From positions 124,001-188,000 of the forward strand of contig NW_025813735.1 in the NCBI RefSeq assembly GCF_021917145.1: a DNA stretch of 64,000 nucleotides, given 5' to 3'. The position numbers were made by a program, and so were the translations under genes. Each line of letters starts with the position of its first letter. The first letter of the stretch is position 1. Shown piece by piece: positions 14,452 through 56,223 of this stretch. The notes below the pieces were generated by a model. That model was not told where the DNA came from, ran no database searches, and saw nothing but the letters and a program-made list of their open reading frames with translations. This DNA comes from Hypomesus transpacificus. Taxonomy: Eukaryota > Chordata > Actinopteri > Osmeriformes > Osmeridae.

Positions 14452-17277
14452 GGGTGTGTCCTCTGACAGAGACTGCAGTTTGAGGAGGAGAGAGACTCTG
14501 AGATGAGACTGTTGGGACTCATCATTCTTGGTCTACTGGCAAAGACTCAGTCAGACAGTTCAGCATGCAGACTGATAGGACAGACAGGTTATGTAGAGCT
14601 AGCTAAAGATGGAGACCTTCTAGTTGGAGGAATATTCACATTTGAGACAAGACGGAAAAAAGTTGACTATGGCTACAAGAAGCCACCAATTGAGTACTGC
14701 AAAGAGTATGTTTTTGTCTTTTACCTATGTGTCAATGGATAGTGATCTATGAATGTATCTGCATGTAATTAATGATGCTCGATCACTAGGAGGGGAGTTA
14801 TTTTTCAGTTTATTTGATTGTTCATATTAAATTATGAAATTGCTCTGACTTCCATCTCCAGGAGGAATAACAGGGAGCTGAAGTTTGCCCGAACGTTGAT
14901 ATTCACCGTGGAGCAGATCAACAGCAGCCCCCAGCTTCTTCCAGGAGTGACTCTGGGCTACAGGATCTACAAGGCCTGTGCATGTTTAATATGTTTATTT
15001 TCCCTGTTAACAGATCAGTCACCTTGCCACTTGCGCTTGTCTAAGTGACAAGAAACAATATCCTTCTTTCTTCAGAACAGTGCCCAGTGATCAGTTCCAA
15101 GTCATAGCCCTTGTGCAACTCATGAAGCATTTTGGCTGGAGCTGGGTGGGAATTGTTTATTCTACTGAGACATACTCTGTTGAAGGAACTGTTGAATTCA
15201 TAAAGGAAGCAAAGAAAGAGGGAATCTGTGTTGAGTACACAGAATTGTTCCAGAAAATAGATACTGTTAATTTCAACAAAATAGTAGAGACAATCACACA
15301 TTCTACCTCCAGGGTGGTGCTGGTGTTTATGTCCCTTTCATACACACAGGATTTTCTAAAGAAGGTAGGAAGGAATGTTACTGGGAAACAGTTGATTGGC
15401 AGTGAATCGTGGATCACAACAGCAAGCTTGGCATTGGAGAGCGGGAGTGTCTTACAAGGGGCGATGGGCTTTGCCATCCCTGAGTCTGACATCCCTGGGC
15501 TGAACGAGTTCCTGCTGAGTCTGAAGCCATCAGACGCACCTCAGAGTTCTCACATCAGGGTTTTCTGGGAGGACGTGTTTCACTGCAGCTTCTCCCCCTC
15601 TAACACCTCCAAGCTGTGTACCGGCTCAGAGGACCTGAGGACAGTCGTCAACGATTACACAGACACAACGGAGACCAGGACTGTCAACAATGTTTACATG
15701 GCTGTTTACGCAGTAGCACACGCCCTCCATAACCTACTGCAGTGTGAAAACGGGTTAAATCCCACCACCGGGAGGAGCTGTATCAACAAGACTGAGGTCA
15801 TGCCTCAACAGGTGAAAATATAGAGGAGAAACTAACCCTACTTTTGTTCATTTCCTTTCATATCTTTAGGTGACATTCAGCTCCAATGAATTGTTTGTCT
15901 TCATGCAGGTGCTGGAGCAGCTAAGGTTGGTGAACTTCACAACGCAGAATGGGAATAAGGTGTCCTTTGATGCAAACGGAGACTCGGTGGCCCAGTATGA
16001 CTTGGTTAACTGGCAGATAGGAGAAGATGGCTCTGCTAACATTGTCAACATCGGCAGATACGACGGATCCAAACCAGATGGACAGAAATTTCTTATAAAA
16101 GACAATTTTAAAATAGTGTGGGGTGGAAACCATGCTGAGGTACAACAATGTGATTGTAATGACTGCAAACAACAGTTGTGGCAGTTGTGTACATTGAATA
16201 GGCAACTAAACAGTTCTATTACAGGTAGAAAAACAGCATGGTCACAAGATATAATTTAATGAAAAATAAAAACAATGGAACCATGCTTTTCTATTTTTGC
16301 TGTATACTTAGGATTAGCTGACACTAACCCTTATTGAAATGTTGTGTCTGGAAGGTTCCCAGATCGGTGTGCACAGAGCCTTGTCCTCCTGGGACTCGGA
16401 AGGCCACCAACAAAAGGAAGCCAGTGTGCTGCTTTGACTGCCTTATCTGCCCAGAGGGAGCGATCAGCAACCAGACAGGTACCTGGCTGTTTCTATTGAA
16501 GATGCCGTTCATTTACCGTCACAAATCTCTGGGAATGTTCCTAAACTGATGATGTATTTATACATTTGTTTTACCATTTGTTGAACAGATTCTTCAGACT
16601 GTTTCCTGTGCCCTCCAGAGTCCTGGCCGAATGAAAACCAAGACATGTGCGTTTTAAAACCCATTGAATTCCTCTCCTTTGAAGAAATAATGGGGACTCT
16701 GTTAACATTGTTTTCATGCTTTGGTGTGTTTTTGTCAGTGCTTATGTCAATAATTTTTGTGGTTCACAAACACACCCCAATAGTCAGGGCCAACAACTCA
16801 GAGCTCAGCTTCTTGCTCCTCTTCTCCCTGACTCTGTGTTTCCTGTGTTCTCTCACCTTCATCGGCCGGCCCTCTGAGTGGTCCTGTATGCTGCGCCACA
16901 CGGCGTTTGGGATCACCTTTGTCCTCTGCATCTCGTGTTCTGGGGAAGACTATAGTGGTGCTGATGGCCTTCAGGGCTACACTTCCAGGATGTGATGTCA
17001 TGAAATGGTTTGGGCCTTTACAGTAGAGACTCAGTGTCCTGGCTTTCACTCTCATCCAGGTCCTGATCTGTGTGCTGTGGTTAACACTCTCCCCTCCTTT
17101 CCCCTTTAAGAACATGGAACATTTTAATGACAGGGTCATTCTAGAATGTGCCTTAGGTTCTGCTGTGGGCTTCTGGGCTGTGCTGGGGTATATAGGACTC
17201 CTGGCTCTCTTGTGCTTTGTCCTGGCTTTCCTGGCCCGAAAGCTGCCTGATAACTTCAATGAAGCCAAGTTCATCAC

Positions 17278-18838
17278 TGTCACGACGTGTGGAGGGGTAG
17301 GACCCAAACGCAGGAGAGTCAGCAGGCATGGTCCAAAAACAAAAGGGTTTAATGCTCAAAACGGGAAACAGACAGGGTACACGCAGGGACAAAGGGTAAT
17401 GCTAAGACAAAGACTGGACACAAAGCAGGAACCTAAATACACAGAAACAAACAAGACACAGGTGAACACAATGAAACTAACGACAACTGAACGAGACAGG
17501 TGACGACAATGACAGGGAAACACTAGGGCAGGGCAAAACCAAAAACAATAGGGGGGCACGGCTGTGGCCGTGACAGTACCCCCCTCTCAAGGGACGTCAC
17601 CCGACGACCCACAAGGCAGGGCAGGGGGTCAGGGCAGGTCCGGGGGGCGGCCCGGAGGCAGGGCAGAGGGTAGAGGCAGGTCCGGGGGGCGGCCCGGACG
17701 CCGGAGGAGGCGGCCAGGAGTCCTCGGGCGGAGGAGGCGGACAGGAGTCCTCGGGCGGAGGAGGAGGCGGCCAGGAGTCCTCGGGCGGAGGAGGAGGCGG
17801 CCAGGAGTCCTCGGATGGCCTGGCACTGGGCAGCACAACCTCGGGGCGAGGCAGGGGCTCAGGGCAGGAACGAGGCTGGGGCACAGGGCAGGAACGAGGC
17901 TGGGGCACAGGGCAGGAATGAGGCTGGGGCACAGGGCAGGAACAAGGCTGGGGCACCGGGCAGGAACGAGGCTGGGGCACCGGGTAGGAACGAGGCTGGG
18001 GCACCGGGCAGGAACGAGGCTGGGGTACAGGGCAGGAACGAGGCTGGGGTACTGGGCAGGAACGAGGCTGGGGTACTGGGCAGGAACGAGGCTGGGCTAC
18101 AGGACAGGAACGAGGCTGGGCTACAGGACAGGAACGAGGCTGGGGCACAGGGCAGGAACGAGGCTGGGGCACAGGGAAGGAACGAGGCTGGGGCACAGGG
18201 AAGGAACGGGGCAGGGGTACAGGGCAGGAACGGGGCTGGGTTCTGGCGGCAGGCGGCCGACTCTCCCTGGCAGGAACAGCCTTGGTGGTCTGGGTGCTGG
18301 GCGGCGCAACCTTCTTCGTCCGGGCGCAGGGCGGCACAACCTCAGGATGAGGCAGGGGCACAGGGCAGGATCGAGGCAGGGGCCCAGGGCAGGACCGAGG
18401 CTGGAGTCGGGGTTCCGGCTGGAACCAGGACTTGGGGTGGGCCTTGAGCTGCAGGCTTCGGGGTCCACCAAAGGCCAGGCGGGTCCCTAGGAAAGGGTTG
18501 GGTGAACTCTCTGCTGGGTCCCATCTTGGTCTTAGCATTCTGTCACGACGTGTGGAGGGGTAGGACCCAAACGCAGGAGAGTCAGCAGGCATGGTCCAAA
18601 AACAAAAGGGTTTAATGCTCAAAACGGGAAACAGACAGGGTACACGCAGGGACAAAGGGTAATGCTAAGACAAAGACTGGACACAAAGCAGGAACCTAAA
18701 TACACAGAAACAAACAAGACACAGGTGAACACAAGGAAACTAACGACAACTGAACGAGACAGGTGACGACAATGACAGGGAAACACTAGGGCAGGGCAAA
18801 ACCAAAAACAATAGGGGGGCACGGCTGTGGCCGTGACA
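17278..18838 (-). mobile_element. LTR-retroelement fossil, non-autonomous, probably Gypsy-type
   Basis: Element of 1561 bp flanked by a 5-bp target duplication, ATCAC (17273-17277 and 18839-18843). Two direct terminal repeats of 298 bp (17278-17575 and 18541-18838) begin TG and end CA and are almost identical, so the insertion is young. The polyadenylation-like wording in the repeats places the element antisense to receptor D. The interior has no recognisable reverse transcriptase, integrase or protease. It is mostly a proline-rich 24-bp tandem array with a possible gag-start remnant next to the repeat at 18541. It is broken or inherently non-autonomous; the family call rests on the 5-bp duplication and general layout. 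Confidence 0.8.
17845..18240. repeat. 24-bp minisatellite inside the LTR fossil
   Basis: About 16 copies of a unit reading GGGCAGGAACGAGGCTGGGG plus four variable bases. Because 24 is a multiple of three, several frames stay open across it and mimic long genes. It is part of the interior of the LTR fossil. Confidence 0.85.
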
Positions 18839-19153
18839 ATCACCTTCAGCATGTTGATATTCTGTGCTGTCTGGATCACCTTTATCCCAGCTTATGTCAG
18901 CTCTCCTGGGAAGTTCACGGTAGCTGTGGAGATCTTTGCCATCCTGGCCTCCAGTTTTGCTTTGTTGATATGTATATTTGTGCCTAAATGCTTCATCATA
19001 GTTTTCAAGCCAGAACTAAATTCAAAGAAACATATTATGTTAAAACAATCCAAATGCCTTTAATGTATATATCGTTTTTGTAAATTAAGTGCACAATGCT
19101 TATTATGTTTGTTTTATGACATTGAGTACATGCTGCTTCTTTCAACAATATTG

Positions 19154-23733: not shown

Positions 23734-26700
23734 TTAAATGTGTTTAGATGGCATCTTTGTCATCAAATGTTTCTTTGAATTTAGTTTTGGCTTGAAAACT
23801 ATGATGAAGCACTTAGGCACAAATATGCATATCAACAAAGCAAAACTGGAGGCCAGGATGGCAAAGATCTCCACAGCTACCGTGAACTTCCCAGGAGAGC
23901 TGACATAAGCTGGGATAAAGGTGATCCAGACAGCACAGAATATCAACATGCTGAAGGTGATGAACTTGGCTTCATTGAAGTTATCAGGCAGCTTTCGGGC
24001 CAGGAAAGCCAGGACAAAGCACAAGAGAGCCAGGAGTCCTATATACCCCAGCACAGCCCAGAAGCCCACAGCAGAACCTAAGGCACATTCTAGAATGACC
24101 CTGTCATTAAAATGTTCCATGTTCTTAAAGGGGAAAGGAGGGGAGAGTGTTAACCACAGCACACAGATCAGGACCTGGATGAGAGTGAAAGCCAGGACAC
24201 TGAGTCTCTGCTGTAAAGGCCCAAACCATTTCATGACATCACTTCCTGGAAGTGTAGCCCTGAAGGCCATCAGCACCACTATAGTCTTCCCCAGAACACA
24301 AGAGATGCAGAGGACAAAGGTGATCCCAAACGCCGTGTGGCGCAGCATACAGGACCACTCAGAGGGCCGGCCGATGAAGGTGAGAGAACACAGGAAACAC
24401 AGAGTCAGGGAGAAGAGGAGCAAGAAGCTGAGCTCTGAGTTGTTGGCCCTGACTATTGGGGTGTGTTTGTGAACCACAAAAATTATTGACATAAGCACTG
24501 ACAAAAACACACCAAAGCATGAAAACAATGTTAACAGAGTCCCCATTATTTCTTCAAAGGAGAGGAATTCAATGGGTTTTAAAACGCACATGTCTTGGTT
24601 TTCATTCGGCCAGGACTCTGGAGGGCACAGGAAACAGTCTGAAGAATCTGTTCAACAAATGGTAAAACAAATGTATAAATACATCATCAGTTTAGGAACA
24701 TTCCCAGAGATTTGTGACGGTAAATGAACGGCATCTTCAATAGAAACAGCCAGGTACCTGTCTGGTTGCTGATCGCTCCCTCTGGGCAGATAAGGCAGTC
24801 AAAGCAGCACACTGGCTTCCTTTTGTTGGTGGCCTTCCGAGTCCCAGGAGGACAAGGCTCTGTGCACACCGATCTGGGAACCTTCCAGACACAACATTTC
24901 AATAAGGGTTAGTGTCAGCTAATCCTAAGTATACAGCAAAAATAGAAAAGCATGGTTCCATTGTTTTTATTTTTCATTAAATTATATCTTGTGACCATGC
25001 TGTTTTTCTACCTGTAATAGAACTGTTTAGTTGCCTATTCAATGTACACAACTGCCACAACTGTTGTTTGCAGTCATTACAATCACATTGTTGTACCTCA
25101 GCATGGTTTCCACCCCACACTATTTTAAAATTGTCTTTTATAAGAAATTTCTGTCCATCTGGTTTGGATCCGTCGTATCTGCCGATGTTGACAATGTTAG
25201 CAGAGCCATCTTCTCCTATCTGCCAGTTAACCAAGTCATACTGGGCCACCGAGTCTCCGTTTGCATCAAAGGACACCTTATTCCCATTCTGCGTTGTGAA
25301 GTTCACCAACCTTAGCTGCTCCAGCACCTGCATGAAGACAAACAATTCATTGGAGCTGAATGTCACCTAAAGATATGAAAGGAAATGAACAAAAGTAGGG
25401 TTAGTTTCTCCTCTATATTTTCACCTGTTGAGGCATGACCTCAGTCTTGTTGATACAGCTCCTCCCGGTGGTGGGATTTAACCCGTTTTCACACTGCAGT
25501 AGGTTATGGAGGGCGTGTGCTACTGCGTAAACAGCCATGTAAACATTGTTGACAGTCCTGGTCTCCGTTGTGTCTGTGTAATCGTTGACGACTGTCCTCA
25601 GGTCCTCTGAGCCGGTACACAGCTTGGAGGTGTTAGAGGGGGAGAAGCTGCAGTGAAACACGTCCTCCCAGAAAACCCTGATGTGAGAACTCTGAGGTGC
25701 GTCTGATGGCTTCAGACTCAGCAGGAACTCGTTCAGCCCAGGGATGTCAGACTCAGGGATGGCAAAGCCCATCGCCCCTTGTAAGACACTCCCGCTCTCC
25801 AATGCCAAGCTTGCTGTTGTGATCCACGATTCACTGCCAATCAACTGTTTCCCAGTAACATTCCTTCCTACCTTCTTTAGAAAATCCTGTGTGTATGAAA
25901 GGGACATAAACACCAGCACCACCCTGGAGGTAGAATGTGTGATTGTCTCTACTATTTTGTTGAAATTAACAGTATCTATTTTCTGGAACAATTCTGTGTA
26001 CTCAACACAGATTCCCTCTTTCTTTGCTTCCTTTATGAATTCAACAGTTCCTTCAACAGAGTATGTCTCAGTAGAATAAACAATTCCCACCCAGCTCCAG
26101 CCAAAATGCTTCATGAGTTGCACAAGGGCTATGACTTGGAACTGATCACTGGGCACTGTTCTGAAGAAAGAAGGATATTGTTTCTTGTCACTTAGACAAG
26201 CGCAAGTGGCAAGGTGACTGATCTGTTAACAGGGAAAATAAACATATTAAACATGCTATAGACCACCTACAAATAGACAGAATATTCAGTGAAAATTTGA
26301 CTAGAAATTAAGTGGATTTACTTTGTAAATCTTGCTTGGACTGTATTAGGTCAAAGTAAATGTAACAGATGATTTAGTGGAGATTCTTTAGACACATTTC
26401 AAAGCAGGTTTAACCATCTCACCTGTGGTACATGTAGAGGGCCGATAGCTCTGTTGATATCCCCACTAGGTCCAGAGGAGGAGTGTCCCAGCAGAGCCTG
26501 CACTCTGCCACTGCCACAGCCCTGCTCAGCCCCGTTGACTGCCTCCAAGCCAGCCCTCATCAGGTGGTTGGACCCACAGGCCTTGTAGATCCTGTAGCCC
26601 AGAGTCACTCCTGGAAGAAGCTGGGGGCTGCTGTTGATCTGCTCCACGGTGAATATCAACGTTCGGGCAAACTTCAGCTCCCTGTTATTCCTCCTGGAGA

Positions 26701-27052
26701 AGGAAGTCAGAGCAATTTCATAATTTAATATGAACAATCAAATAAACTGAAAAATAACTCCCCTCCTAGTGATCGAGCATCATTAATTACATGCAGATAC
26801 ATTCATAGATCACTATCCATTGACACATAGGTAAAAGACAAAAACATACTCTTCGCAGTACTCAATTGGTGGCTTCTTGTAGCCATAGTCAACTTTTTTC
26901 CTTCTTGTCTCAAATGTGAATATTCCTCCAACTAGAAGGTCCCCATCTTTAGCTAGCTCTACATAACCTGTCTGTCCTATCAGTCTGCATGCTGAACTGT
27001 CTGACTGAGTCTTTGCCAGTAAACCAAGAATGATGAGTCCCAACAGTCTCAT
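23734..27052 (-). CDS. Receptor E: intact V2R/OlfC, right arm of the inverted duplication
   Basis: Exons (minus strand): 27052-26850, 26693-26423, 26222-25425, 25327-25097, 24881-24758 and 24647-23734; GT-AG throughout, 846 residues. Signal peptide [17 protein letters not shown]; flytrap to about residue 501 ([11 protein letters not shown]; exon 2 motif SSSGPSGDI; exon 3 opens [11 protein letters not shown]); cysteine-rich segment 502-542; seven helices 543-846 with [14 protein letters not shown] and [13 protein letters not shown]. Where CaSR-type flytraps have a serine-rich SGS(T/S)xS loop, E reads SSSGPSG, so ligand preference may differ from G and J. It is the complete version of pseudogene D. 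Family knowledge places it in the membrane of olfactory microvillous neurons; the ligand is not known. Confidence 0.94.
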
Positions 27053-29947: not shown

Positions 29948-32900
29948 ATGTGTCGAAAAGAATGGTGCTTCCTCTGCTCTTTGGCAGTTCTGTCCCTGAG
30001 TTCTGCCTCTGGCTCTGCCTCTGGCTGTGAAGTGCTGGGTAAGTTCAACATGCAGAGGTTATTCAAGCCAGGAGACATAACGATCGGGGGCATTTTTCCC
30101 GTGTCCAACAAACAGGAGCAGAGCAACATCTCCTACATGGTAAAGCCTCCTGACGTCAGCTGTGTGGGGTGAGTCTGGTCTTATTCACGTCCAGATTGTC
30201 GTCCAGACGTTTACGTGTTTGATGTTTAGTTTATAGTTGTGTATGGATTCCTCAGTTCTCAGTAAAAAACTACTTTTTAATGCAATTACTTTTATTTCTG
30301 ATAATCATGGCTGTTCACTCGTCATTTTTTTTTCTGTCAGTAAAAGTGAGCTTTCATATCTAAAATCTATGATCAACTTTTCAAACAATTTCTTTTTGAA
30401 GGTTTGATCTGCGTGCCTTCCGCTGGACCCAGGTAATGATCTTCGCAATTGAAGAAATCAACGAGGACAACCTCCTGCTGCCCAACATATCCCTGGGTTA
30501 CAGGCAAGCTCATTTCACACCATTCATTATTGTATTCAATCAGCAGACTGCTTAAATCCAAAAGCGATGCACAGGCAGGGATTAGAGCCTGCAACCCCTT
30601 GATCTGCAGTCAAATGCTCTGAGCACTATGCTCTACCCATGCCCCTTAATCTGGAGTCAAATGCTCTAACCACTATGCTCTACCCATGCCCCCGTACAGG
30701 ATCCTTGACTCCTGTGCGTCTCCCACCAACGTCCTGCGCGCGGCTGTGACTTTGGTCAGCCGGTCAGAGGACCCTGGTGCCCTGTGCCCTCCTGTGGCTG
30801 CTCTCATCGCAGAATCCGGCTCCTCTCAGTCGCTGGCTGTGGCCTCCACTCTGGGCCCCTTCAGGGTGCCCACGGTGAGAAGTGTCAGGTGTCGCTACGA
30901 CAGGAACACAGCTGAGACAGAGGCACGTCTGGTGTCTCTGTCTCAGCTCAAGTCCCGTAGATGACTCTGTAAAATGATCATTCTGTGTTCTGTGATCGTC
31001 TGTAAAGATGTTCTGAGTTTGTATTTCATGTATTTCTTTGTCCTTTCAGCAGGTCATTGCTGGTTATTTCTCAAACTCGTATATCCAAGCACTGAGATAT
31101 TACTGGAATGTGTTCTGTGTCAAATGATTTCCCTATGTCATTGTTTTGGATAAAGTCTGTTCAATTTCACACTTGATTTTGAGAAACCACAATAGAACGA
31201 ATGCAAATGCAACTCAGCTGGTTAAGATGAGAGTGAGGGTCACATGAAAGTAATCAACCATTTGTTGATAGTGTATTGAGTATACTATACTGAGCATGTG
31301 TAGATCATCCACAGATTTACTTTTCAAAGAAAGTGCTATCCTCGCTGGGCTCATCTCTCTCATCTCTCATCTCATGTCTCTCCTTGTCATGATGGCAGGT
31401 CAGTTACTTCTCCACCTGTGCCTGTCTGAGTGACAGGGAAAAGTACCCCACGTTTTTCCGCACGATCCCCAGTGACTTCTACCAAGCCAAGGCTCTCGCT
31501 GCCCTGGTCCGCCGGTTCGGCTGGACCTGGATTGGTGCGCTCCATTCAGACAACGACTATGGCCGGAACGGCGTCCTGGCGTTCACCAAGGAGGTGCAGA
31601 AGCAAGGCGTGTGCATCGCATTTGTGGGGACGGTGTTACGGACGTACACCAGGGCCAGGATCCTGGACGTGGTGGACACCATCAAGCAGTCCATGGTCAA
31701 AGTCATTCTGGCGTTCGTTCCAGAGGGCGACCTGTACCCCCTCATGCAGGAGGTGGTCCTGCAGAACATCACAGGGATCCAGTGGATCGCCAGCGAGGCC
31801 TGGATCACCGCTGCGCGGCCCTCCACCCCGGAGATCTACCGATCCTTCGGGGGGACGATCGGCTTTGTGGTGCGCAAGGCAGCCATTCCCAGGTTCGAAC
31901 CGTTCCTCCGGGGCATCAGTCCGTACGTGGACTCCAGCGCCGGTTTTATCAGGGACTTCTGGGAGATCATGGCGGGGTGTCGGCCGCTGGCGCCAGGGAA
32001 GGTCCAGGCGGCTGGTGCCGGGGCCAGGGACGTAAAGTGGTGCAGCGGAACGGAAACCCTAGCAGGTTCCAGCAACGTGTTCTTCAACGTGTCACAGCTG
32101 AGGGTGGCATACAACGTCTACAACGCCGTGTACGCCATCGCACACGCCCTCCATAACCTCATATTTTGCCAGGCGTACGGGGAAAGCCCGGTGATACCTT
32201 GTGTGAATGTGTCTCAGATTCAGCCCAAACAGGTGAGGACATCCACAAACAGAAGTGCTGTATTTACATGAATGATTCAGACAGTTAGGGATACAGTTGA
32301 GCTACACCACCTCATTTAAGTAAAAATATATAATTATAATTTTTATTTTGTGTCATTTTCAGAAGCACCACATGACTCGTGTGTTTTTAAACTCTGGCTG
32401 TACAGGTCAGTGACCAGCTGCAGAAGGTGAAACTCACCAACCCATTTGGGGAAGCCGTGTTTTTCGATAAGAACGGGGACCCGCCCCCCTCCTATGACAT
32501 CATCAACTGGCAGCTGACGGAGGGGCAGGTGGATCATGTGACTGTGGGTCACTTTGGCTCCGCGTCCGATGGGAGCTACAAGCTCAGCATCCAGGAAGAA
32601 GACATCGTCTGGGGAACAGGTCACATGGTACTGTGCATTTATTTTTGGTTTCGTTCATTTTTGTACTTTTGTATTAATTTAGCAAAATTGTTTATTCAAA
32701 ACTAAGCACATATTGTGCATTTAGAAGGGCAGTTATGCTGTATACAGAACAAAATCAAGGATCAGATGTACATGCTGTAGTTCCAGGGGCGGTTTTAGGC
32801 CTCCCGGGCAGCCTCCCGGGGCGCAACAAAGTTAGGGACGGCATTTTCTGCCAAGATGGCCCCCTCTGCTGTGCAAAAAAAGTGTGCGGCTGTGTTCGTG

Positions 32901-34860
32901 CCACTCGCTCCTTCGTCCCGGGGGAGGGGGTCTCAGCTACCAGACACAGTGTAAAGTAACATCTCAGCTACCACACACAGTGTAAAGTAACATCTCAGCT
33001 ACCACACACAGTGTAAAGTAACATCTCAGCTACCACACACAGTGTAAAGTAACATCTCAGCTACCAGACACAGTGTAAAGTAACATCTCAGCTACCACAC
33101 ACAGTGTAAAGTAACATCTCAGCTACCAGACATAGTGTAAAGTAACATCTCAGCTACCAGACACAGTGTAAAGTATCATCTCAGGTACCAGGCACAGTGT
33201 AAAGTAACATCTCAGCTACCAGACATACTGTAAAGTAGCATCTCAGCTACCAGACACAGTGTAAAGTAACCACATCTTAGGTACCAGACACAGTTCGACA
33301 ATTACAGTAACTCACATATCACTTCCTACTACCTGTCAAACTGATTCTAATTGCCCTTCAATATAAATACCCTGTTCTTTCTAGATTCCAACAGCAGCAT
33401 GTTCTGCCGTTTGCCCCCCGGGGACCAGGAAGGCTCAGGTTAAAGGCCGGCCTGTCTGCTGCTTTGACTGCATCCCCTGTCCTGAAGGAACTATAGCCAA
33501 CTCCACAGGTACCAAGCATACACAGTACAGTATACATTACGGTGTTGCCCTATATGGTACAGTATGCATTACAGTGCACTATACAGGTACTGCATATGTT
33601 AGTGTTGCACTATACAGGTACTGTATATGTTAGTGTTGCACTCTACAGGTACTGCATATGTTAGTGTTGCACTATACAGTGAGAAACCTATCTGACTCTA
33701 CTGTGTGAAAAACAAAATCATAGTATATAAAGGATTAATTTAGCAGATGCATTTATTCAAGGCAACGCACAGTACAGGGGAGATTTGAACTTAACCACTG
33801 AGCTACACCTTCCCCCCCAAATGTATAATCTGATGGACGCAAAGAGTCTAGAGGTAATTTGTAATATATATTTCCTACCATGAACCTGTTTTTGTCGGAA
33901 AGTGTATGTGTTACTTGTGTGTGTTCCTCAGGTGCTGTAGACTGCGACCCCTGTCCTCGGGAGTATTGGTCCAACAAGAGGAGGGATAACTGCATTCAGA
34001 AAACCATTGAGTTTTTATCCTACAGCGAACCAATGGGAATAGCTCTTACTGTGATCTCCCTGCTAGGTGCTTGTCTGTCATTGGCCACAATGTCAGTTTA
34101 CATCCACTACAGAGACACGCCTGTGATAAAGGCAAGTAACTTTGAGCTGAGCTCCCTGCTCTTGTTTTCTCTCTTCATGTGCTTCCTCTGCCCTCTGCCC
34201 TTCCTGGGCAAGCCCACCACCCTCACCTGCATGCTGCGCCACACGGCTTTTGGAGTGACCTTTGCCCTGTGTATATCCTGCATTCTGGGCAAGACCATAA
34301 TTGTGGTGACTGCGTTCAGAGCGACCCTGCCCGGCAGCAACATGGCGGGGAAGTTTGGCCCAGCCCAGCAGAGAGTCATCGTATGTTCATGCACGTTCGT
34401 CCAGATATTCATCTGTGTCCTCTGGCTTAATCTCAACCCGCCTTTCGCTGACAAGGTTTTCCGATACAGCAATAAAAAGATTGTTCTGGAGTGTAATCCT
34501 GGTTCGGAGGTTGCGTTCTATGCTGTGTTGGGGTACATAGGCTTTCTGGCTGGAACATGCTTGGTCCTGGCTTTCCTGGCCCGAAAGCTGCCTGATAACT
34601 TCAATGAAGCCAAGTTCATCACCTTCAGCATGTTGATTTTCTGTGCTGTCTGGATCACCTTTATCCCATCTTATGTCAGCTCTCCTGGGAAGGTGACCGT
34701 AGCGGTAGAGATCTTTGCCATCCTGTCTTCTGCATTTGGGTTGTTGATTTGCATTTTTGCGCCAAAGTGTTACATTATTTTCATGAAACCAGAGCACAAT
34801 ACTAAGAAACATGTGATGCGTAAAAACCCTCCAAGGAAAGTAATTTACAGCTCAAAATAG
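29948..34860 (+). CDS. Receptor F: V2R/OlfC with a SINE-derived extra intron in exon 2
   Basis: Exons: 29948-30168, 30402-30503, 30700-30874, 31399-32232, 32406-32627, 33385-33508 and 33932-34860; 868 residues if the 196-bp interruption of exon 2 is spliced. That interruption has AG|GCAAGC at its start and TACAG at its end, so splicing would use a GC-AG pair; unspliced it brings a stop and a frame shift. Signal peptide, [11 protein letters not shown], an ESGSSQS ligand-loop motif like G, H and J, a cysteine-rich segment (about 519-559) and seven helices (from about 560) are complete. TM1-TM5 are distinct from the other receptors, but 34564-34693 (end of TM5 to TM6) is nearly identical to A and E. 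Likely functional; the GC-AG intron is the main doubt. Confidence 0.88.
30504..30699 (-). repeat. tRNA-derived SINE piece forming an intron in receptor F
   Basis: The minus strand reads as a tRNA-type SINE: GGTTGCAGGCTCTAATCC (B-box area, 30579-30596) and GGTAGAGCATAGTG (A-box area). The A-box part is present twice in tandem (about 30600-30645 and 30646-30692). The insert is bounded by TACAGG copies at 30499-30504 and 30695-30700, consistent with a target duplication. Confidence 0.75.
32779..32935. repeat. Possible hAT-like left end in receptor F intron 4
   Basis: CAGGGGCGGTTTTAGGCCTC resembles the hAT ends seen at 27899 and 48777. No matching right end or target duplication was found. Confidence 0.35.
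32935..33300. repeat. 31-bp minisatellite in receptor F intron 4
   Basis: About 11-12 copies of a 31-bp unit containing ATCTCAGCTACCACACACAG and TGTAAAGTAAC. The last copies are more diverged. Intronic. Confidence 0.9.
33738..33830 (-). repeat. SINE relic in receptor F intron 5
   Basis: AGCAGATGCATTTATTCAAG resembles the reversed SINE tail, followed by TTGAACTTAACCACTGAGCT, a reversed tRNA-like head. Confidence 0.45.
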
Positions 34861-39100: not shown

Positions 39101-41255
39101 AATTTCTGTGTTGTATTACATGTTACATTACCCTTGTAATGTAAGCATTGTGAAAGCATGTTGAAATGCTTTTTGGTAAAAAGTGGTTCTCCTATGATTC
39201 TTCTGGATTTTGTGGGACTTCCTCAAATGATCAAAGTGATACACAAACACAGCCAATCACCTCACACTAACCCTCCCTGTGATATCTTATACTCCCTGAG
39301 GACCCCACTAATTACAATGTTTTTGACCTTAAGGGACGGGAAGGACTGGAATTTACCAAACATGAGTCAAGTCCGTCAACAGTACCTAACAGAAACACAG
39401 GGAAAAATCCAAGATTTCAGTTAAACCTGCCATTTCCTTTTGTGCTCTTGTCATTGTGCCAGCTTCAGCACTATCTCCAGGAAGTGTCCTTTAATGCATC
39501 TGGAGAGGAGGTGAACTTTGACCTGAAAGGAGACTCCATCCCCTCCTATGACCTGATGAACTGGCAGAGGAACCCTGATGGAAACCCCTGGTTCGTGAAG
39601 GTCGGCCTGTTTGACGGAACAAAGGATTCTGGGAAGGAGCTGGTGATCCAGGAGGAGGCAATAGTGTGGGCGGGGCATCAGAACCAGGCAAGCTGCTGTC
39701 ACTGTGTTTACTCGCATCAGATGCCAGCTGGTCAAGTTCTGTACTGGCAGTTTGATATAAGTCTGAGCAAAAGTGTAGGTTTCTCTCTTTGGTGTTTCCT
39801 GACAGGATATCAAGTTTGTGTTTTGAACGTGAGTGAATAACTCACTTATTACTCATTAAATTACCACTAAGTAAGAAAGTTTAATTACATTGTGTTTCCA
39901 AAGATACAAAAACTAGTGAGTCACCTCAAATCACATAAACAACGTCTGTTGAACTTTCAGGCGCAGGGATCCTGTCCATGATTCTTTTATGGAGGTTAAA
40001 GCGTGTCCTATAGAAACAATGTCCATAGATTCCTCACACAGCGTGGTTGGTGTTGACCTGGTGTCCCTGTCCCAGGCAGTGGTGTCTGTGTGCAGCTCCA
40101 GCTGTGCTCCAGGATCCAGGAAGGCTGTCCGTCATGGGGAGCCTCTGTGCTGCTTTGACTGTGTACCATGTGACAGCGGCAAGATCAGTGATCAGACAGG
40201 TGAACCAGCAGGACTGATAGCTACTGTACAGTTTAGAGATCAAAGTTTTCATGAATTTATGAAATGATTGAAATTATTTTAGATTTCAGGAAGCATATTG
40301 TTTATTTCTCATTTTCTCTTTCTCTGTCTCTCGCTCTCCCTTTATATCCAACTCTCCAGATTCTATAGAGTGCACTGTTTGTCCTGAGGACTTCTGGTCG
40401 AACGACAATGGCACCAGGTGCATCCCCAAGACAGTGGAGTTCCTGTCCCACGACGCCATGGGCTTGTCCCTGACGGTGATCGCCGTAGTGGGAGCTTGTC
40501 TGACCATAGCTGTCCTGGGGGTCTTCCTCCACAACATAAACACCCCCATCGTCCGTATCAACAACTCAGAGTTGAGTTTCTTCATCCTGATCTCCCTGAC
40601 TCTCTGCTTCCTGTGTGCGCTGGTCTTTGTGGGGGAGCCCACTTCCTGGTCCTGCATGCTGCGTCACACGGCCTTCAGCATCACCTTCTCCCTCTGCATC
40701 TCCTGCATCCTGGGCAAGACCCTGGTGGTCCTGGCTGCCTTCACCTCCACCAGGCCCGGGAACAACATCATGAGGTGGCTGGGGCCCAGGCAGCAGAGGG
40801 TCATCATCTTCAGCTGCACCCTGGTCCAGGTGATCATCTGTACAGCCTGGCTCACAGACGCCCCTCCCTTCCCCTCCAGGAACTCCCAGTACCAAAGCTC
40901 CAAGATCATTCTAGAATGCAGCGTGGGTTCCAGCCTGGCGTTCTGGTGCGTTCTGGGATACATCAGCCTCCTGGCCTGCCTGTGCTTCGTCTTGGCCTTC
41001 CTGGCCCGCAAGTTGCCCGGCAACTTCAACGAGGCGAAGTTCATCACCTTCAGCATGCTGATCTTCTGCGCCGTGTGGGTGTCGTTCATCCCGGCGTACG
41101 TCAGCTCTCCCGGGAAGTACACCGACGCAGTGGAGACCTTTGCCATCCTGGCCTCCAGTTACGGCCTGCTCTTCTGCCTGTTCGCTCCCAAGTGTTTCAT
41201 CATCCTCCTGAGGCCTGAGCAGAACACCAAACAGCATCTCATGGGGAAGAAATAA
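36138..41255 (+). CDS. Receptor G: intact V2R/OlfC, six exons, GC-AG intron 4
   Basis: Exons: 36138-36370, 37564-37852, 38132-38968, 39463-39687, 40076-40199 and 40360-41255; 867 residues. Intron 4 starts with GCAAGC after CCAG, a GC-AG intron shared with H and J; all others are GT-AG. Signal peptide, a Ser/Thr/Pro-rich linker ([16 protein letters not shown]), then the flytrap with [23 protein letters not shown] in the ligand loop and [11 protein letters not shown] proline-rich insert ([19 protein letters not shown]) lies in a lobe-2 loop. Cysteine-rich segment about 529-569, then seven helices ([26 protein letters not shown]). The SGSSQS wording is typical of amino-acid-binding family C flytraps, so an amino-acid ligand is likely; the specific one is unknown. 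Confidence 0.93.
36928..37151 (+). repeat. L2-like LINE 3' end in receptor G intron 1
   Basis: Contains CTCCCGGTGGGAGTTTTTCT, GGTTGAGGGGCAGTTCTATG and a (TTTGA)n tail. It is absent from the equivalent intron of J, so it inserted after the G/J duplication, or was lost from J. Confidence 0.6.
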
Positions 41256-41665: not shown

Positions 41666-44600
41666 ATGACTCTCCTCTTAGTGTGGTGTCTCCTGGCCCC
41701 CTGCCTGGTCTCCTTCCTCACCCAAACGTCTGCCTCTCCCCCGTTCCCCACGGCCTCTCCCCCGGCCTCGGCCCCAGCCTCTGTGTGCTCTCTGCAGAAT
41801 GACTTTGCGCCAGGGTTTGTGGCTGAGGGAGACTTTGTGATTGGAGGGATCTTTCCCCTGCACTACAACCAGGAGATGCCTGGCCTTAACTACACCTACA
41901 AACCTGCAGCCATCAGGTGTAACGGGTGAGTGGGGAGGCTGGGTGAGTCTGCAGCCTGGGCTCCCTTGCTGAGGGAAGCTGGGAACGACACAGAGCTTTC
42001 TGACTCGTTGATTGTGACTTTTTTGTAATTTATTTTTTACTACTGCCACTGTAGGGATTTTAATATGTCATCTTCAAATGTTTCTGTTTGTGTGTGTGTC
42101 TGTATATGTGTGTCTGTATGTGTGTGTGTGTGTGCACATGCATGTGAGCAGGTTTGACCCCAGAGCGTTCCGCTGGGCTCAGACCCTGAGGCTGGCCGTG
42201 GAGCAGATCAACCAGAACCAGGAGTTTCTGCCCAACCACACGCTGGGGTACAAGATCTTTGACTCGTGTGCCTATCCTCTGACAGGCCAGAGGGCTGCCC
42301 TGGCCGTGCTGAACGGCCCCAGCCAGGCCCAGCCCTCTACCTGCTCTGGAGCCTCTCTCCTGGCCGTGGTGGGAGAATCCGGCTCCGCTCAGTCCATCGT
42401 GGTGTCTGGAATCCTGGAGCCTTTCAGAATCCCCATGGTAGGGTTCTGGAAAGCAAGGTTCTAACGAAGGAGATCAAAAGGGGTTCTAACCTAAACATCT
42501 AAAGACTGTTTTAACTAAAGATGACCTTGGACGACATTTTCTAATAACAAACATAATAATAAAGAAGGTGTTCAAAGGAGTCCTATCCTAACTTCTCAAG
42601 ACTGTTCTAACAAAAGGCAACTTCAGTTCTGTATCATTCTATGGACGAATTTCACAAAGGTGTTTTAACAAAACCTTTGTTAAGACTAAGGTTCAAGTTT
42701 AGGTCAAATTATGACTTTAATTCTTTAATGCAGTAAGAAGGGGAGAATTATCAAGATACATTTTGAATGAGTAATTATTTGATAATTAAATGTAGCGATA
42801 GGAAAGAACTTGTTTGTGCCTCCTGACCTTTGTACCCTGTCGTGTGTGGCAGTGCTGGACCTGTAACTGTGGCGTCTCTCCTCAGATCAGCTACTTCTCA
42901 TCGTGTGCGTGCCTCAGCGACAGGAGGAAGTACCCCACGTTCTTCAGAGTCATCCCCAACGATGACTACCAGGTGAGGGGGGCTACCAGGTGAGGGGGGC
43001 TACTAGGTGAGGAGGGCTACCAGGTGAGGGGGGCTACCAGGTGAGGGGGTCTACCAGGTGAGGGGGTCTACCAGGTGAGGGGGGGCTTCATAACCTAGTC
43101 ACTGGATGTCTCCAGAGAATCCAATATCAGTCGAATTTTACTTATTTGTCATGAAGGTTATTGTTATTCTTGTTATTATTCTTTGTGTTGTTTGTTTTAT
43201 TATGATCTCTGTGCGGAAGCTTAATGTGCTTCTGAGAGAACAGATTTGAATGATTCTTGTTGGCCTCAAACTGTCTTTTTGTCCTGGTTCCATATACAAC
43301 GAATGGTCGGTCAAAGCTTTACATTAAGGTCACAAAACTACCATGTAACTGCATAGCAGCAGGGAGTCAGATGGCTGAGCGGTGAGGGAATCAGGCTATT
43401 ATTCATAAGGTTGCCGGTTCGATTCGCAGCCGTAGCCAAATGACGTTGTGTCCTTGGGCAAGGCACTTCACCCTACTTGCCTCGGGGGAGTGTCCCTCTA
43501 CTTACTGTAAGTCGCTCTGGATAAGAGCGTCTGCTAAATGACTAAATGTAGCAGTCACAACATTGTTGTTATGTCTATTGTTGCAATGCCCCTGCCTGCA
43601 TGTGTGTGTATGCGTGCAAATATGACTGTGTTTGTGTCTCCAGGTGAAAGCCATTGCCCAGCTGCTGGTGCGTTTGGGGTGGAGGTGGGTGGGGGTGGTG
43701 CGGGGCAACCGTGCGTACGGACGCTTTGCCCTGCAGGGCCTTCTGAGGGAGCTGAGCGACACAGAGGTGTGCGTGGCCTACCAGGAGACGATCCCCCTGC
43801 TGTATGACAGAGACAAGGCCCTGGAGATCATGCAGGTGGACATGCTCGCACACACCTGCTGGGAGGGACGGCTGGGGAGGAGCCCAGGGGACAGGGCTCT
43901 GGATTCTGTTCCTGCTCCAGGGGACAGGGCTCTGGACTCTGTTCCTGCTCCAGGGGACAGGGCTCTGAACTCCTGGGCAGGTTCCTGCTCCAAGATCAGT
44001 TGTTTGTCTATTTTCTGTTGCGGTTTTGTTACTGCTACCTTATCCTCCCTCTCCCCTTCTTCCTCCCCATCTATCTCCCCTCCTGTCCCTTCTTACCCCC
44101 TCTTTCTCCTCTTCCTTCCCTCCTCCCCACCCACCCCCCTTCTCCCCCTTCTCCTCCCCATCTACACCCCCCCCGCCAGGTCATGCGTACCTCCAGAGCC
44201 AGGGTGGTGGTGGTGTTTTCGGCTGAGGGGGAGATGACTCCCTTCCTCAGGGACTACATGGAGCAGAATATCACAGGGATCCAGTGGGTGGCCAGCGAGG
44301 CCTGGGTCACAGCCTCCGTCTTCACGGCCAGCGAGTACTACCCCTATCTGGGGGGCACCATAGGCTTCGGCATCCGGCAAGGCTCCATCCCCGGCCTGGA
44401 GGGCTACCTGCGTGAGGTGAACCCCCAGAGATACCCCTCCAACCCCCTGGTGACAGAGCTGTGGGAGGCTCTCTACGGCTGCACCCCCTCTTCCTCCTTC
44501 TCCTCGCTCCCCCTCTGCACAGGACAGGAAGTTCTCCTGGAGCAGCACTCTGCCTACATGAACACCTCCAGTCCCAGGGTGGCCTATAACGTGTACAAGG

Positions 44601-51554: not shown

Positions 51555-54500
51555 TTACTTCCGCATCATCTGTTTCCTGTTGTTTTTCTCCGGTTCCAGC
51601 ATGACAACGTAGCACTTGGGGGCAAAAATACACATGAGAAGGCCGAAGGTGGAGGCCAGGATGGCGAAGATGTGAACAGCCACCGTGTACTTCCCAGCCG
51701 TGCTCACGTACACAGGGATGAACGTGACCCACACGGCGAAGAAGATCAGCATGCTGAAGGTGATGAGCTTGGCCTCGTTGAAGTTGTCCGGGAGTTTCCT
51801 GGCCAGGAAGGCCAGAAGGAGGCAGAGGGAGGCCAGCAGGCCAATGTATCCCAGAACGCACCAGAAGCCGATCTCCGACCCCACGGCACACTCCAGTATG
51901 ATGACGGCACCGAGGTAGGCGGTGTTGCGGTTGGCGTGCGGGGGGTTGGTGAGGAGCCAGATTATACAGATCAGTCCCTGGGGAGAGGAGAGATGCACTT
52001 TGATCAGTCCAGAGGTTTACTGTCATAGTTATGTGTCGTTAGGTTACCAGCAGGCCAAAACTAAAAATCTACCGATGTTTTTAGTTATTTTTCTGCGATT
52101 ATTCAGGTAAAAAAAATCCGGAATTCTACTGAGTGATTATTTGGTGTATTGTGGCACTTTTTTGCCACTGGAAGCATGATTCTAAGTGAGGTTGATGTGT
52201 ATGAACTTCCCTCTATCCCTAACCCCTTACAGTGTACAGTTTAACAGATTATCAGGTTAAGGATTTGAGGTTCAGGAGGAGAACAAGTACTTTTCCACCT
52301 CAGTATTGCTACTTTTCTTTGAAAGCAGAACCACTAGTGAGGCAGACTGTACCTGGATGGCAGTGCACACCAGAACACTGGCTTTCTGCTGGGTGGGGCC
52401 AAACCACTTCATGACATCACTTCCTGGCAGGGTGGCCCTGAAGGCGATCAACACCACAGCAGTCTTGGCCAGGAGGCATGAAATGCAGAGGGCAAAACTG
52501 ATCCCAAACGCTGGGTACCGCACGCGGCACAGCCAATCAGAGGGCTCACCAATGAACAGGAGACCAATAAGGAAGCAGATGCAGAGGAAGAGTAGGAGCA
52601 GGAAGCTGAGCTCCATGTTGTTGCCGCGGACAACGGGGGTGTGTCTGTGGCTGAGGAACACGGCCAGCACAGACAGGGAGGAGCCGGCTCCTAGCAGAGA
52701 CACGGAGCACAGGACCACGCCCATGGGCTCGTGGTAGGACAGGAAGTCCATCGTCTTGGGGACACAGTCGTCCCTGCCTGCGTTGGGCCAGCTGTTCTCT
52801 GAGCACTGGATGCAGTTTAAGGAATCTGGAAACGAATCGGGAGAAATTGGATAGTTTGTATTGCTCTCATTTACCAACAAGCCACTGACGACATTAAAGT
52901 ACATAATAATACATTTATAATACTATTTTTTACTCATTATTTATTAATAAAGTATCTATTTCTAAAAATTAAATGGTTGGATTTCCTAAAACCTGATTCT
53001 ATACAGTGTTTATAATCATGCATTATGAATTTAGCCCTCACCGGTGTGGTTGCTGACCTCCCCGTCAGAACAGGGGATGCAGTCGAAGCAGCAGACTGGC
53101 TGCCCCTTCCTGTTGGCCAATCGGGTGCCAGGAGGGCAGCTCTCACTGCACACTGAGCGAGCTGCCTGAGGGTTAAAGGTCAACCACTAAGACTCATGGG
53201 ACAGCTAAGCTGTACAGCAACCATCTAGCAGGTATCTTCACATAAGCTCATAACCTTGGACACTGTGACCTATGTCTGACACTCGACACCTTAAAACATT
53301 ATCACGAAAAATGGCTGTTGTTCCAATCAACCTTTTTGATGATTATACTTCAACAAAACATTAAATGGCTCATCTTATGTGAACCAGAAACCCACATGAA
53401 CTATCTTCCTTGAAGGCAGCGGTATCCTTGTTGCATGTTGTTTTCAATGTGTGAGTTTTAGTAGTAGCCTCAGTGTGTCCTGTAGTTTATAAACAGCAGC
53501 AGGCACATTGACCTGCAGTGTGACAAGTGTGAGCAGGACTACAAGTACCAGCCTGATGAGCAAACGCAGTTTCAAACCCCTCCTTGAACCACCACACACC
53601 TGTTGGCCGACGGGCCACTGAATAGCGGAGTCATTTATGACCAGTTCCTGCTCATCAACCAATAAGGCGTTATAGAAGCCCACTTTAACCAATCGCAGGG
53701 AGCCATCTGGACCCTTGTGCCAGTTCATGAGGTCGTAGGAGGCTATGGGGTCGCCGTTGTCATCGAATCTGACCTCCTCCCCCAGAGTGGAGAACTTCAC
53801 CCTCCTCATGTAGTGCAGCAACTAAGGGAGAGACACAATGTCCTACATGAAACTGTTTTATGTCAAATATTGATTTGAGGACAATAGTCTGGAACTTAAC
53901 AGTGGACCTAACCAGGAGTCGTAGGGATACCTAAGTTAAAGGTAGCCTGAAGTCACACTCACACACACACACACACTCATCCACACACACACCTGCCATG
54001 GTTTGAAATCCTTCAGGTCCCCACAGGTCCCATTGATGAAGGGACCTTGCCCCCTAATGCAGTTCCCCATGTCATGCAGGGCGTGGGCGATGAGGTAAAC
54101 AGCCTTGTAGACGTTGTACGACACCCTGAGGTCAGTCACGTCAGAGTAGGCAGAGTAGACGTCTGATAACCTCTCTGTCCCACGGCATGGCTTCCTGTTC
54201 GTGTTCGACTCTGTGTGAGAGTGTGTGTTGGAGGACCCGTTTAACCAACAGTCAAACATCTCCTGCCATAGCTCCGTCAGGAAGGGGGACTGGCATGCGC
54301 TGGCCGCGTCCAGCCGGGTCAGGTGATCTCCCAGCCCGGGGATAACGTCCGCCTTGTGGATCCCAAAACCCAGGGTTCCCTTCAGCATGTCCCCAAACTC
54401 TCCCCAGAGGGACTTGGCGGTGGCCCAAGCCTCGCTGGCGACCCACTGCAGTCCGGTGATGTTGCGGCGTCGCATCTCTCTTAGGATGGAGGCGAGCTCT

Positions 54501-56223
54501 GGCTCGCCAGAGAAGTTCAGGATGACCCTGGAGGAGGAGCCCTGGATGCGACGCAGACGCACAGCAGAGATACAGCAGAAGCTAAATAAAATCATGTTTT
54601 TTTTATTATTTAAATGCGTACCTGTATGACGTGCACCAGCTCATCCAACGGCCTGTCTGTCAGCACCACAGGATAGAAGTGGACGTAGGCGGGACACACA
54701 CCAAACTGCTCGGCTGCCTGGAGGAACAGCTGGATGGCAAAGCGTGCGTAGGCGGACTCCACCCCAATCACGCCCACCCAGGTCCAGCCGAAGTAGTGCA
54801 CCAGGCGTGCCAGTGCCCGGATCTGAAAGGCGTCGCTCGGCATCGTCCGCATGAACGTGGGGAACTTGCTCTGGTCGCTCAGACAGCTGCAGGAGGCAAA
54901 GTAGCTCACCTGGAGGCAGAGAGGCAGAGTTAGGGACACCAGGAGGCAGAGGCAGGTTAAGGGACACCTGGAGGCAGAGAGGCAAGGTTAGGGACATCAG
55001 GAGGCAGAGAGGTAGAGTTAGAGACACCAGGAGGCATAGAAGCAAGGTTAGGGACACCAGGAGGCAGAGAGGTAGAGTTGGAGAGATCAGGAGGCAGAGA
55101 GGTAGAGTTAGAGACACCAGGAGGCAGAGAGGCAAGGTTATGGACACCAGGAGGCAGAAAGGCAGGGTTAGGGACACCAGGAGGCAGAGACGCAAGGTTG
55201 GGGTGACCTGGAGGCTGAGGGAGGGGAACCTGGAGACGGAGAGGCAGGAGAAGAACAGTTTAACCGACAGACCACACAGCACCCCTACAAAAAACAGTCT
55301 GTTACTAGAACTAAACAGTAGCTCTGTCACAACAACAAGTTGGAGATACATTACTACTCTTATTATGACCATGTTCATCTTCCAGACAAATCCTATTTCC
55401 ATAAACATTTCATCCCAGTAAGCAGAGCATAGCAGTGTAACACCTGTCCTCTCCGGTCTCACCAGGGGGATGTTGAAGGAGCCTAGAGTTCTTAACAAGG
55501 CCATGGAGACTCCAGAACCAGCGTCGCCTATGATGACAGGTGACCGAGCCTTGCGTGCAGCTGAACATCCAAGCTCCTGTCCGGTCCCTGGACCGGGACC
55601 AGGACTAGGATCCGAGTCAGGCAGTTCGGCACCCCCAGAAGCCCTGGCTGTCTCTGGCTTGCCGTTGACCAGGAGCAGGGCCTCCTGGAGGGATGTGTGC
55701 ACGTCGTCACAGCTGTCCCTGATGTGGAAGCCCAGTTTCAGCTGAGGGAGCAGGTCTTCGCGCTGGTTGATCTCTCTCACGGCGAACGCCATGGTCTGCA
55801 TCCAGCGCAGGGCTCGCTGACTGAAGCTGGAACACAAACACGGACACATACACTTAGTAGAGAATTCTAACGTTCGCAAGGCTCACTGGGTGTGGATGTG
55901 ACAGTCTGTCTGGCTGGGTGAACGACTACAAAACAGAATTCACACTTTCCCGTACTAAACTGCACACAATTAACCTAACCTCTCCTCTCTACTTACTACT
56001 TATAAGTGTGCGGTTGGGGTTTCCATTGAAAGGAAAGAAGAGGAGAGACGGGACTGTTGTGGAGAGGAAACAAGCCTCCGATGACCAGATCTCCATCCTC
56101 GTAGAGGCTGCCTGTCTCCTCCAAGCCCAGGAAGGAGCACCCGTCCTGGGAAACCACGGAGCACAGCTGGCCCACCAGGAGACCAACACCCAGCACCAAG
56201 AGCTTGGCTCCCAGGCACGTCAT
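51555..56223 (-). CDS. Receptor I: diverged V2R/OlfC with split exon 3 and split helix exon
   Basis: Exons (minus strand): 56223-56000, 55826-55463, 54909-54622, 54541-53993, 53821-53600, 53165-53042, 52825-52353 and 51977-51555; 888 residues, all GT-AG. ATG at 56223 gives a signal peptide ([18 protein letters not shown]), then [14 protein letters not shown]. The ligand loop [12 protein letters not shown] resembles the calcium-sensing receptor GSGVS motif more than its neighbours do. Exon 3 is split after HVIQ (80-bp intron) and the helix exon after CTAIQ; the joined parts total 837 and 896 bp, exactly the lengths of the unsplit exons of G. Before TM3 it reads [17 protein letters not shown], unlike the usual MLRHTAF. 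Most distant receptor here; subfamily not assigned. Confidence 0.88.
54910..55225 (-). repeat. 30-bp minisatellite in receptor I intron 2
   Basis: About 10 copies of a unit like GACACCAGGAGGCAGAGAGG plus TAGAGTTAG-type sequence, running right up to the exon-3 acceptor. The unit length is a multiple of three, so the intron stays open in one frame. Confidence 0.9.

Follow-up and report, generated by a model that had tools for sequence, protein, structure and literature searches.

In rice, a SINE inserted into the coding sequence of the catalase gene CatA gave rise to a p-SINE1-like intron (Iwamoto et al.; accessible sections of PMC2394776 and PMC3151243), a case that resembles the locus described here in that a coding-sequence SINE became an intron, but that comes from a plant. 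For vertebrates, the accessible sections of a 2007 paper call SINE-insertion introns previously unreported and describe four human cases of Alu 'intronization' (PMC2394776), which share with our locus a SINE-made vertebrate intron but are located in 3′-UTRs and alternatively spliced. The coding intron 3 of notothenioid slc26a2 resembles a transposon and has gt-ag in its repeats; unlike our locus it involves, in the sections of the article at hand, an element with inverted repeats, a 4-nt direct repeat, GT-AG borders and a second element inserted later (PMC12357937). Introners likewise turn transposon insertion with target duplication into introns, but they form families of many similar introns, for which the accessible part of PMC9860276 finds no gain pattern in vertebrates, whereas our locus holds a single SINE copy: with up to three mismatches allowed, a 28-mer from its donor end has one match in the 437-Mb assembly, unlike the many near-identical introns typical of introners. 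Fish MC-receptor and other GPCR genes also gained introns, some with internal SINE/UnaL2 fragments, at ~320–190 Mya (PMC3151243); these too are fish GPCR introns, but they are old, and the accessible text describes no founding insertion with a duplication. Our locus would combine a known route, transposon insertion, with unusual ingredients: an antisense tRNA-type SINE, a GC donor and a vertebrate coding exon.

The gene concerned, F (29948–34860), is a V2R/OlfC receptor gene inside the OlfC gene cluster of the window, by which we mean the whole 64,000-nt stretch analysed (positions 124001–188000 of contig 67 of the 437-Mb genome). Full-length zebrafish OlfC genes all have six coding exons with conserved phases, according to the available sections of PMC1764893. 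F departs from this plan: its five canonical junctions, in phases 2, 0, 0, 0 and 1, are joined by one additional phase-2 break, where exon 2 is interrupted by a 196-bp insert (Table 1). The departure is one of gene structure and leaves the protein family unaffected. With the insert removed, the joined ORF encodes 868 aa with 0 stops and 0 frameshifts, the other exons all being open as the sequence-only reading had claimed, and the product carries the domains of a V2R/OlfC receptor (Pfam ANF_receptor, E = 2.1e-73; NCD3G, E = 5.5e-19; 7tm_3, E = 1.1e-83). At the junction of exons 4 and 5, six donor-acceptor combinations were tried, and only ATG/GTACTG with ctag/ATTCC kept the frame (slashes mark exon–intron boundaries throughout). 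Intron 4 of F also contains, at 32930–33290, an array of ~30-bp repeats resembling CAGCTACCAGACACAGTGTAAAGTAACATCT, spotted by eye.

Table 1. Features of gene F, its insert and extra or comparable introns in neighbouring paralogs (window coordinates).
Feature	Position	Strand	Remarks
F exon 1	29948–30168	+	contains the start codon; phase 2 at its 3′ end
F exon 2, left part	30402–30503	+	3′ end ...GGT TAC AG
TACAGG, left copy of putative target-site duplication	30499–30504	+	source of CAG/ and of the first base in the GC donor
Predicted phase-2 intron, CAG/GCAAGC ... GTACAG/GAT	30504–30699	+	196 bp; splits codon R108; one antisense SINE plus one repeat copy
tRNA-type SINE, antisense to F	30505–30693	−	head full-length at 30693; degenerate tail towards 30505; ~15% from family consensus
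Two tandem 47-bp units	30595–30688 (30595–30641 and 30642–30688)		duplicated tRNA-like 5′ part of the SINE; 91% alike
CTCTAAC, branch-point-like motif	30664–30670	+	candidate branch-point A at 30669; antisense of SINE A-box region; stretch from 30657 up to the acceptor AG free of AG
GTACAG, predicted acceptor	30694–30699	+	right TACAGG copy at 30695–30700
F exon 2, right part	30700–30874	+	begins G ATC CTT GAC
F exon 3	31399–32232	+	unbroken
F exon 4	32406–32627	+	weak donor ATG/GTACTG
F exon 5	33385–33508	+	
F exon 6	33932–34860	+	seven-transmembrane part; stop TAG
Modelled intron 4 of paralog G	39688–40075	+	donor CAG/GCAAGC, 9-mer identical to the F donor
Extra intron, exon 3 of paralog H	42973–43643	+	GT-AG; begins in a 7-copy 17-bp array repeating its own junction
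Second extra intron, exon 3 of H	43836–44179	+	GT-AG
Extra intron, transmembrane exon of paralog J	51978–52352	−	375 bp
Extra intron, exon 3 of J	54542–54621	−	80 bp

The insert lies inside the R codon of GYRILDSC with TACAGG on both sides, just as the sequence-only reading had described, and the arithmetic that it gave for removal is correct: excision joins 102 and 175 nt, restores the frame and rebuilds GYRILDSC. Retention would disable F, as had also been stated, with translation gaining 16 residues after GYR before reaching a stop, and skipping of exon 2 (277 nt) would likewise shift the frame. As for the proposal that TACAGG is a target duplication, the repeat is indeed present on both sides, but at only 6 bp it amounts to modest evidence, because AG/G is required for exact removal regardless. 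When SINE copies were scanned for target duplications, an exact shared word of at least 7 letters was found near both ends in 6/32 rows (unverified matches), a limit below which F's 6-bp repeat falls.

Splice dinucleotides alone prove little, because for a 6-bp duplication combined with F's SINE end, chance alone would offer an exact GT/GC-AG removal at 132 of 2601 coding positions (5.1%). Within exon 2 plus the insert, 39/393 GT/GC-AG pairs of at least 60 nt keep the frame without a stop; the family comparison of these 39 covered the pair 30504–30699 only, which leaves GYRILDSC. The argument for an intron rests on the CAG/GCAAGC context, the branch point and the intact ORF rather than on the dinucleotides.

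The F donor had been read as close to consensus, and so it proved: against the donor consensus CAGGTAAGT, CAG/GCAAGC departs at +2 and +6 only. At the other end of the insert, the candidate branch-point motif CTCTAAC is located 30 nt before the acceptor with no intervening AG. Within the SINE family this motif is a minority form, because exact GTTAGAG (antisense CTCTAAC) is present in only 9/33 other copies; in the gap between motif and acceptor, an AG is kept by 24/33 other copies, and the substitution that destroyed it in F occurs in 0/33. The insert thus appears to fit the signals of a GC-AG intron, with a strong-context GC donor, an AG acceptor and a branch point in range, and would be removed from the mRNA. 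Exon 2 also contains a competing GT donor at 30433 (CAG/GTAATG), scoring 3.3 versus 2.8 for the GC donor, and the F intron-4 donor ATG/GTACTG (32628) scores −2.1 where the intact-looking gene A has one at −1.8, all on a simple, rough matrix. No frame-keeping pair links donor 30433 to acceptor 30699. The 9-mer CAG/GCAAGC is modelled as the canonical intron-4 donor not only in G but also in H and K, so that three neighbouring paralogs appear to use GC; among the introns modelled in A, E, F, G, H, J and K, tallied by hand and leaving out a dropped 75-nt GC candidate in J, 4/39 have GC donors.

The insert had been taken for a reversed tRNA-derived SINE, and the Rfam tRNA model does match its minus strand at 30568–30631, at a sub-threshold 26.4 bits (gathering score 29). 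We take the head of the element to resemble tRNA-Cys; ARAGORN found no tRNA gene in the window. Its tail is degenerate and gave no UnaL2 match. At least 41 SINE matches were listed genome-wide, with 40 of 179 candidates scored, and the copies besides F's are 74–93% alike over partial lengths. Its dispersed genomic copies and tRNA-like head appear to place the element among tRNA-type SINEs, which typically pair such a head with an L2/UnaL2-like tail. It spans the insert end to end: the head starts no more than about one base from the right repeat, and the tail reaches the left one. Another SINE lies in F intron 5, with a UnaL2 match at 33730–33783 (28.6 bits, below the gathering score of 55).

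How old is the insertion? Compared with a leave-one-out consensus of 33 other copies, each with at least 80 aligned letters, F's SINE differs at 15/103 sites and ranks 13th lowest of 34. Most of these copies were fetched for their likeness to F, so that its real divergence from the family may be greater. Fourteen of the 15 differences are each carried by at most six other copies and the remaining one by 13/29; at 3 of the 15 sites, no more than 46–52% of copies share the consensus base. The two 47-bp units inside the SINE differ from one another at 4/47 positions and have four differences from the consensus in common, indicating that their tandem duplication probably followed the insertion. 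Neither this duplication nor the additional introns of cluster paralogs had been noticed in the sequence-only reading. With a SINE ~15% diverged and units 4/47 apart, the insertion looks old, and the suggestion of an intron caught at birth does not hold: the intron is not freshly born. This argument presumes that the differences in the SINE arose after insertion.

The coding sequence of F appears to have been maintained meanwhile. In neutral simulations limited to substitutions, its ORF was kept in 0/2000 replicates at d = 0.15, and 3.3% of ORFs survived at d = 0.043. Other disabling changes, which had been named in advance, together with an absence of transcripts, as the sign of a pseudogene, number none in F, whereas the models of two pseudogenes in the same cluster contain 3 stops and 2 frameshifts (D) and 2 frameshifts (B). 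Gene D is the inverted partner of the intact-looking E (14539–19048 and 23737–27016), the two being ~90% identical in the protein model. F further retains 213/242 residues that are invariant in paralogs, where neutral decay at d = 0.15 predicts ~72.6 changes (P = 2.7e-11 for at most 29); invariant sites were defined on A, E, G, H, J and K, the other paralogs in the window, with at least four present and exon 1 left out. The paralogs themselves keep 242/258 (A), 241/266 (E), 242/243 (G), 242/250 (H), 241/298 (J) and 100/102 (K), so that F, with 29/242 departures from shared residues, has more than A (16/258) and E (25/266) and fewer than J (57/298). Pseudogenes D (235/237) and B (159/164), being recent copies, also keep many, and the measure alone therefore cannot separate genes from young pseudogenes; it counts for F because its SINE is old.

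The site itself is unbroken elsewhere. Exon 2 had been described as normally uninterrupted, and all 42 other exon-2 matches listed, which include distant members and one with a TGA, span F's site in one piece. F's standing as an exception holds in this narrower sense, exon 2 being split at this site only in F among the matches listed, but not more broadly, because other OlfC genes of the cluster often carry extra introns and F is thus not the sole departure from the six-exon plan. As far as visible, paralogs A, E, G and K keep to that plan (K runs off the window), and H and J each have two extra introns (Table 1). In H, a 17-bp unit that includes the exon-intron junction CTACCAG/GTGAG is repeated seven times in tandem to form the array at 42966–43084, and a relative of H, L059, has the same intron with fewer array copies, as counted by eye; the repeated junction suggests that the H intron at 42973 was probably born through tandem duplication. 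A further SINE lies inside the intron common to H and L059.

Searching the genome with F exon 3 gave 93 matches, part of which belong to other receptors, and showed the exon fragmented in many contig 67 genes. Automatic models, built as spliced alignments of fetched loci (L010–L037 and L059–L063 on contig 67), placed extra in-frame introns at F positions 195, 217, 226, 231, 247, 259, ~262 (two phases), 279, 284, 311, 366 and 387, in addition to the intron that splits J's transmembrane exon; certain of these positions recur in several genes. The check for in-frame stops covered part of the retained extra introns, several of which have lengths divisible by three. Loci holding the same gene twice include L013 (H), L014 (L059), L024 (L062), L035 (L060) and L061 (L019); L021 was modelled in reverse orientation (2 stops in the first), and L022 in a single orientation, at 87% identity with 2 stops. 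Several candidates were set aside because they probably reflect differences in coding length or fitted poorly: the 75-nt GC candidate in J, candidates of 54 and 96 nt in L061, 48 nt in L016 and 45 and 215 nt in L029, the exon-2 breaks of L036 and L037, a break in L025 at F position 39, and all C and D models. On these models, the contig 67 OlfC genes, many of them with extra introns in the canonical exon 3, at ten or more positions, may constitute a hotspot of intron gain. In L023, the intron at F position 311 has its acceptor, TGCAG/GT, directly after the tail of a sense SINE that is preceded by other intron sequence, and is perhaps another SINE-linked intron.

Several histories could leave F in its present form. 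F might be a pseudogene, or an allele, recently broken by the SINE, with the GC-AG pair accidental and the rest intact for lack of time. Exact excision being available at 132/2601 positions, the presence of pseudogenes B and D in the same cluster, and the combination in F of a GC donor with a weak intron-4 donor all agree with such a history. It fits poorly with a SINE ~15% diverged and carrying units 4/47 apart, in a gene that nonetheless has 0 stops and 0 frameshifts while D and B are disabled; at either distance simulated, from 3.3% of ORFs surviving to 0/2000, neutral drift would seldom have spared the reading frame, and we judge a recent break improbable. Less improbable, although still unlikely, is a mixed use of the insert, partly spliced through the GC site and the GT donor at 30433, with F weakly expressed or its transcripts subject to nonsense-mediated decay. 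GC donors frequently go with alternative splicing, and donor 30433 is a competitor, but F appears to have been constrained since the insertion, and the models of G, H and K place no donor other than CAG/GCAAGC at intron 4.

The intron could also be the older of the two, acquired by another route and later entered by the SINE, which would have replaced most of it. Extra introns are frequent in the cluster, and the one that H and L059 share has a SINE inside it; yet at F the head and tail of the SINE reach the two repeats, such that no older intron sequence is visible, and 0/42 other exon-2 matches listed have an intron at the site. Of the alternatives weighed here, we find this sequence of events the hardest to credit.

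The best explanation remains that F is a functional receptor gene with a GC-AG intron born from a SINE, and we hold it with considerable confidence. It is anchored in the anatomy of the insert, the frame, the intact ORF, the divergence of the SINE from its family and the unbroken paralogs at the site, all of them observed; splicing, the branch point and the target duplication are inferred. We propose that a working OlfC (V2R) gene received a tRNA-type SINE, antisense and within its codon R108, with duplication of TACAGG at an empty site that would have read GGTTACAGGATC. The two copies of the duplication would have given both exon edges, with AG/G on the left, where the end of the SINE tail would complete CAG/GCAAGC, and TACAG/G on the right, and the branch point CTCTAAC would have come from the antisense A-box region. 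The spliceosome would then excise exactly the SINE and one repeat; because exact excision leaves the protein unchanged, F could have stayed under selection while the SINE decayed.

The cluster around F looks unusually rich in extra introns, and neither extra V2R introns nor a coding SINE-born vertebrate intron was reported among the matches listed in a search of titles and abstract starts of the open-access literature. More tentatively, and with somewhat less than even confidence, we suggest that the OlfC cluster is a nursery of coding introns, gained at ten or more positions through at least two routes, one exemplified by F (a SINE with duplication-borne splice sites and an A-box branch point) and the other by H (tandem duplication of a splice-like exon stretch). 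F would then be the first coding SINE-born vertebrate intron described, as far as the open-access literature reaches.

The origin of spliceosomal introns is a long-standing open question, and vertebrate cases with a visible founding element are very few. In F, the target repeat and the SINE between them account for the putative donor, acceptor and branch point, yielding a testable recipe in which an antisense tRNA-type SINE brings the branch point and an AGG-containing target brings both splice edges. Because sister genes show further gains, one gene family could serve to compare the mechanisms by which introns arise.
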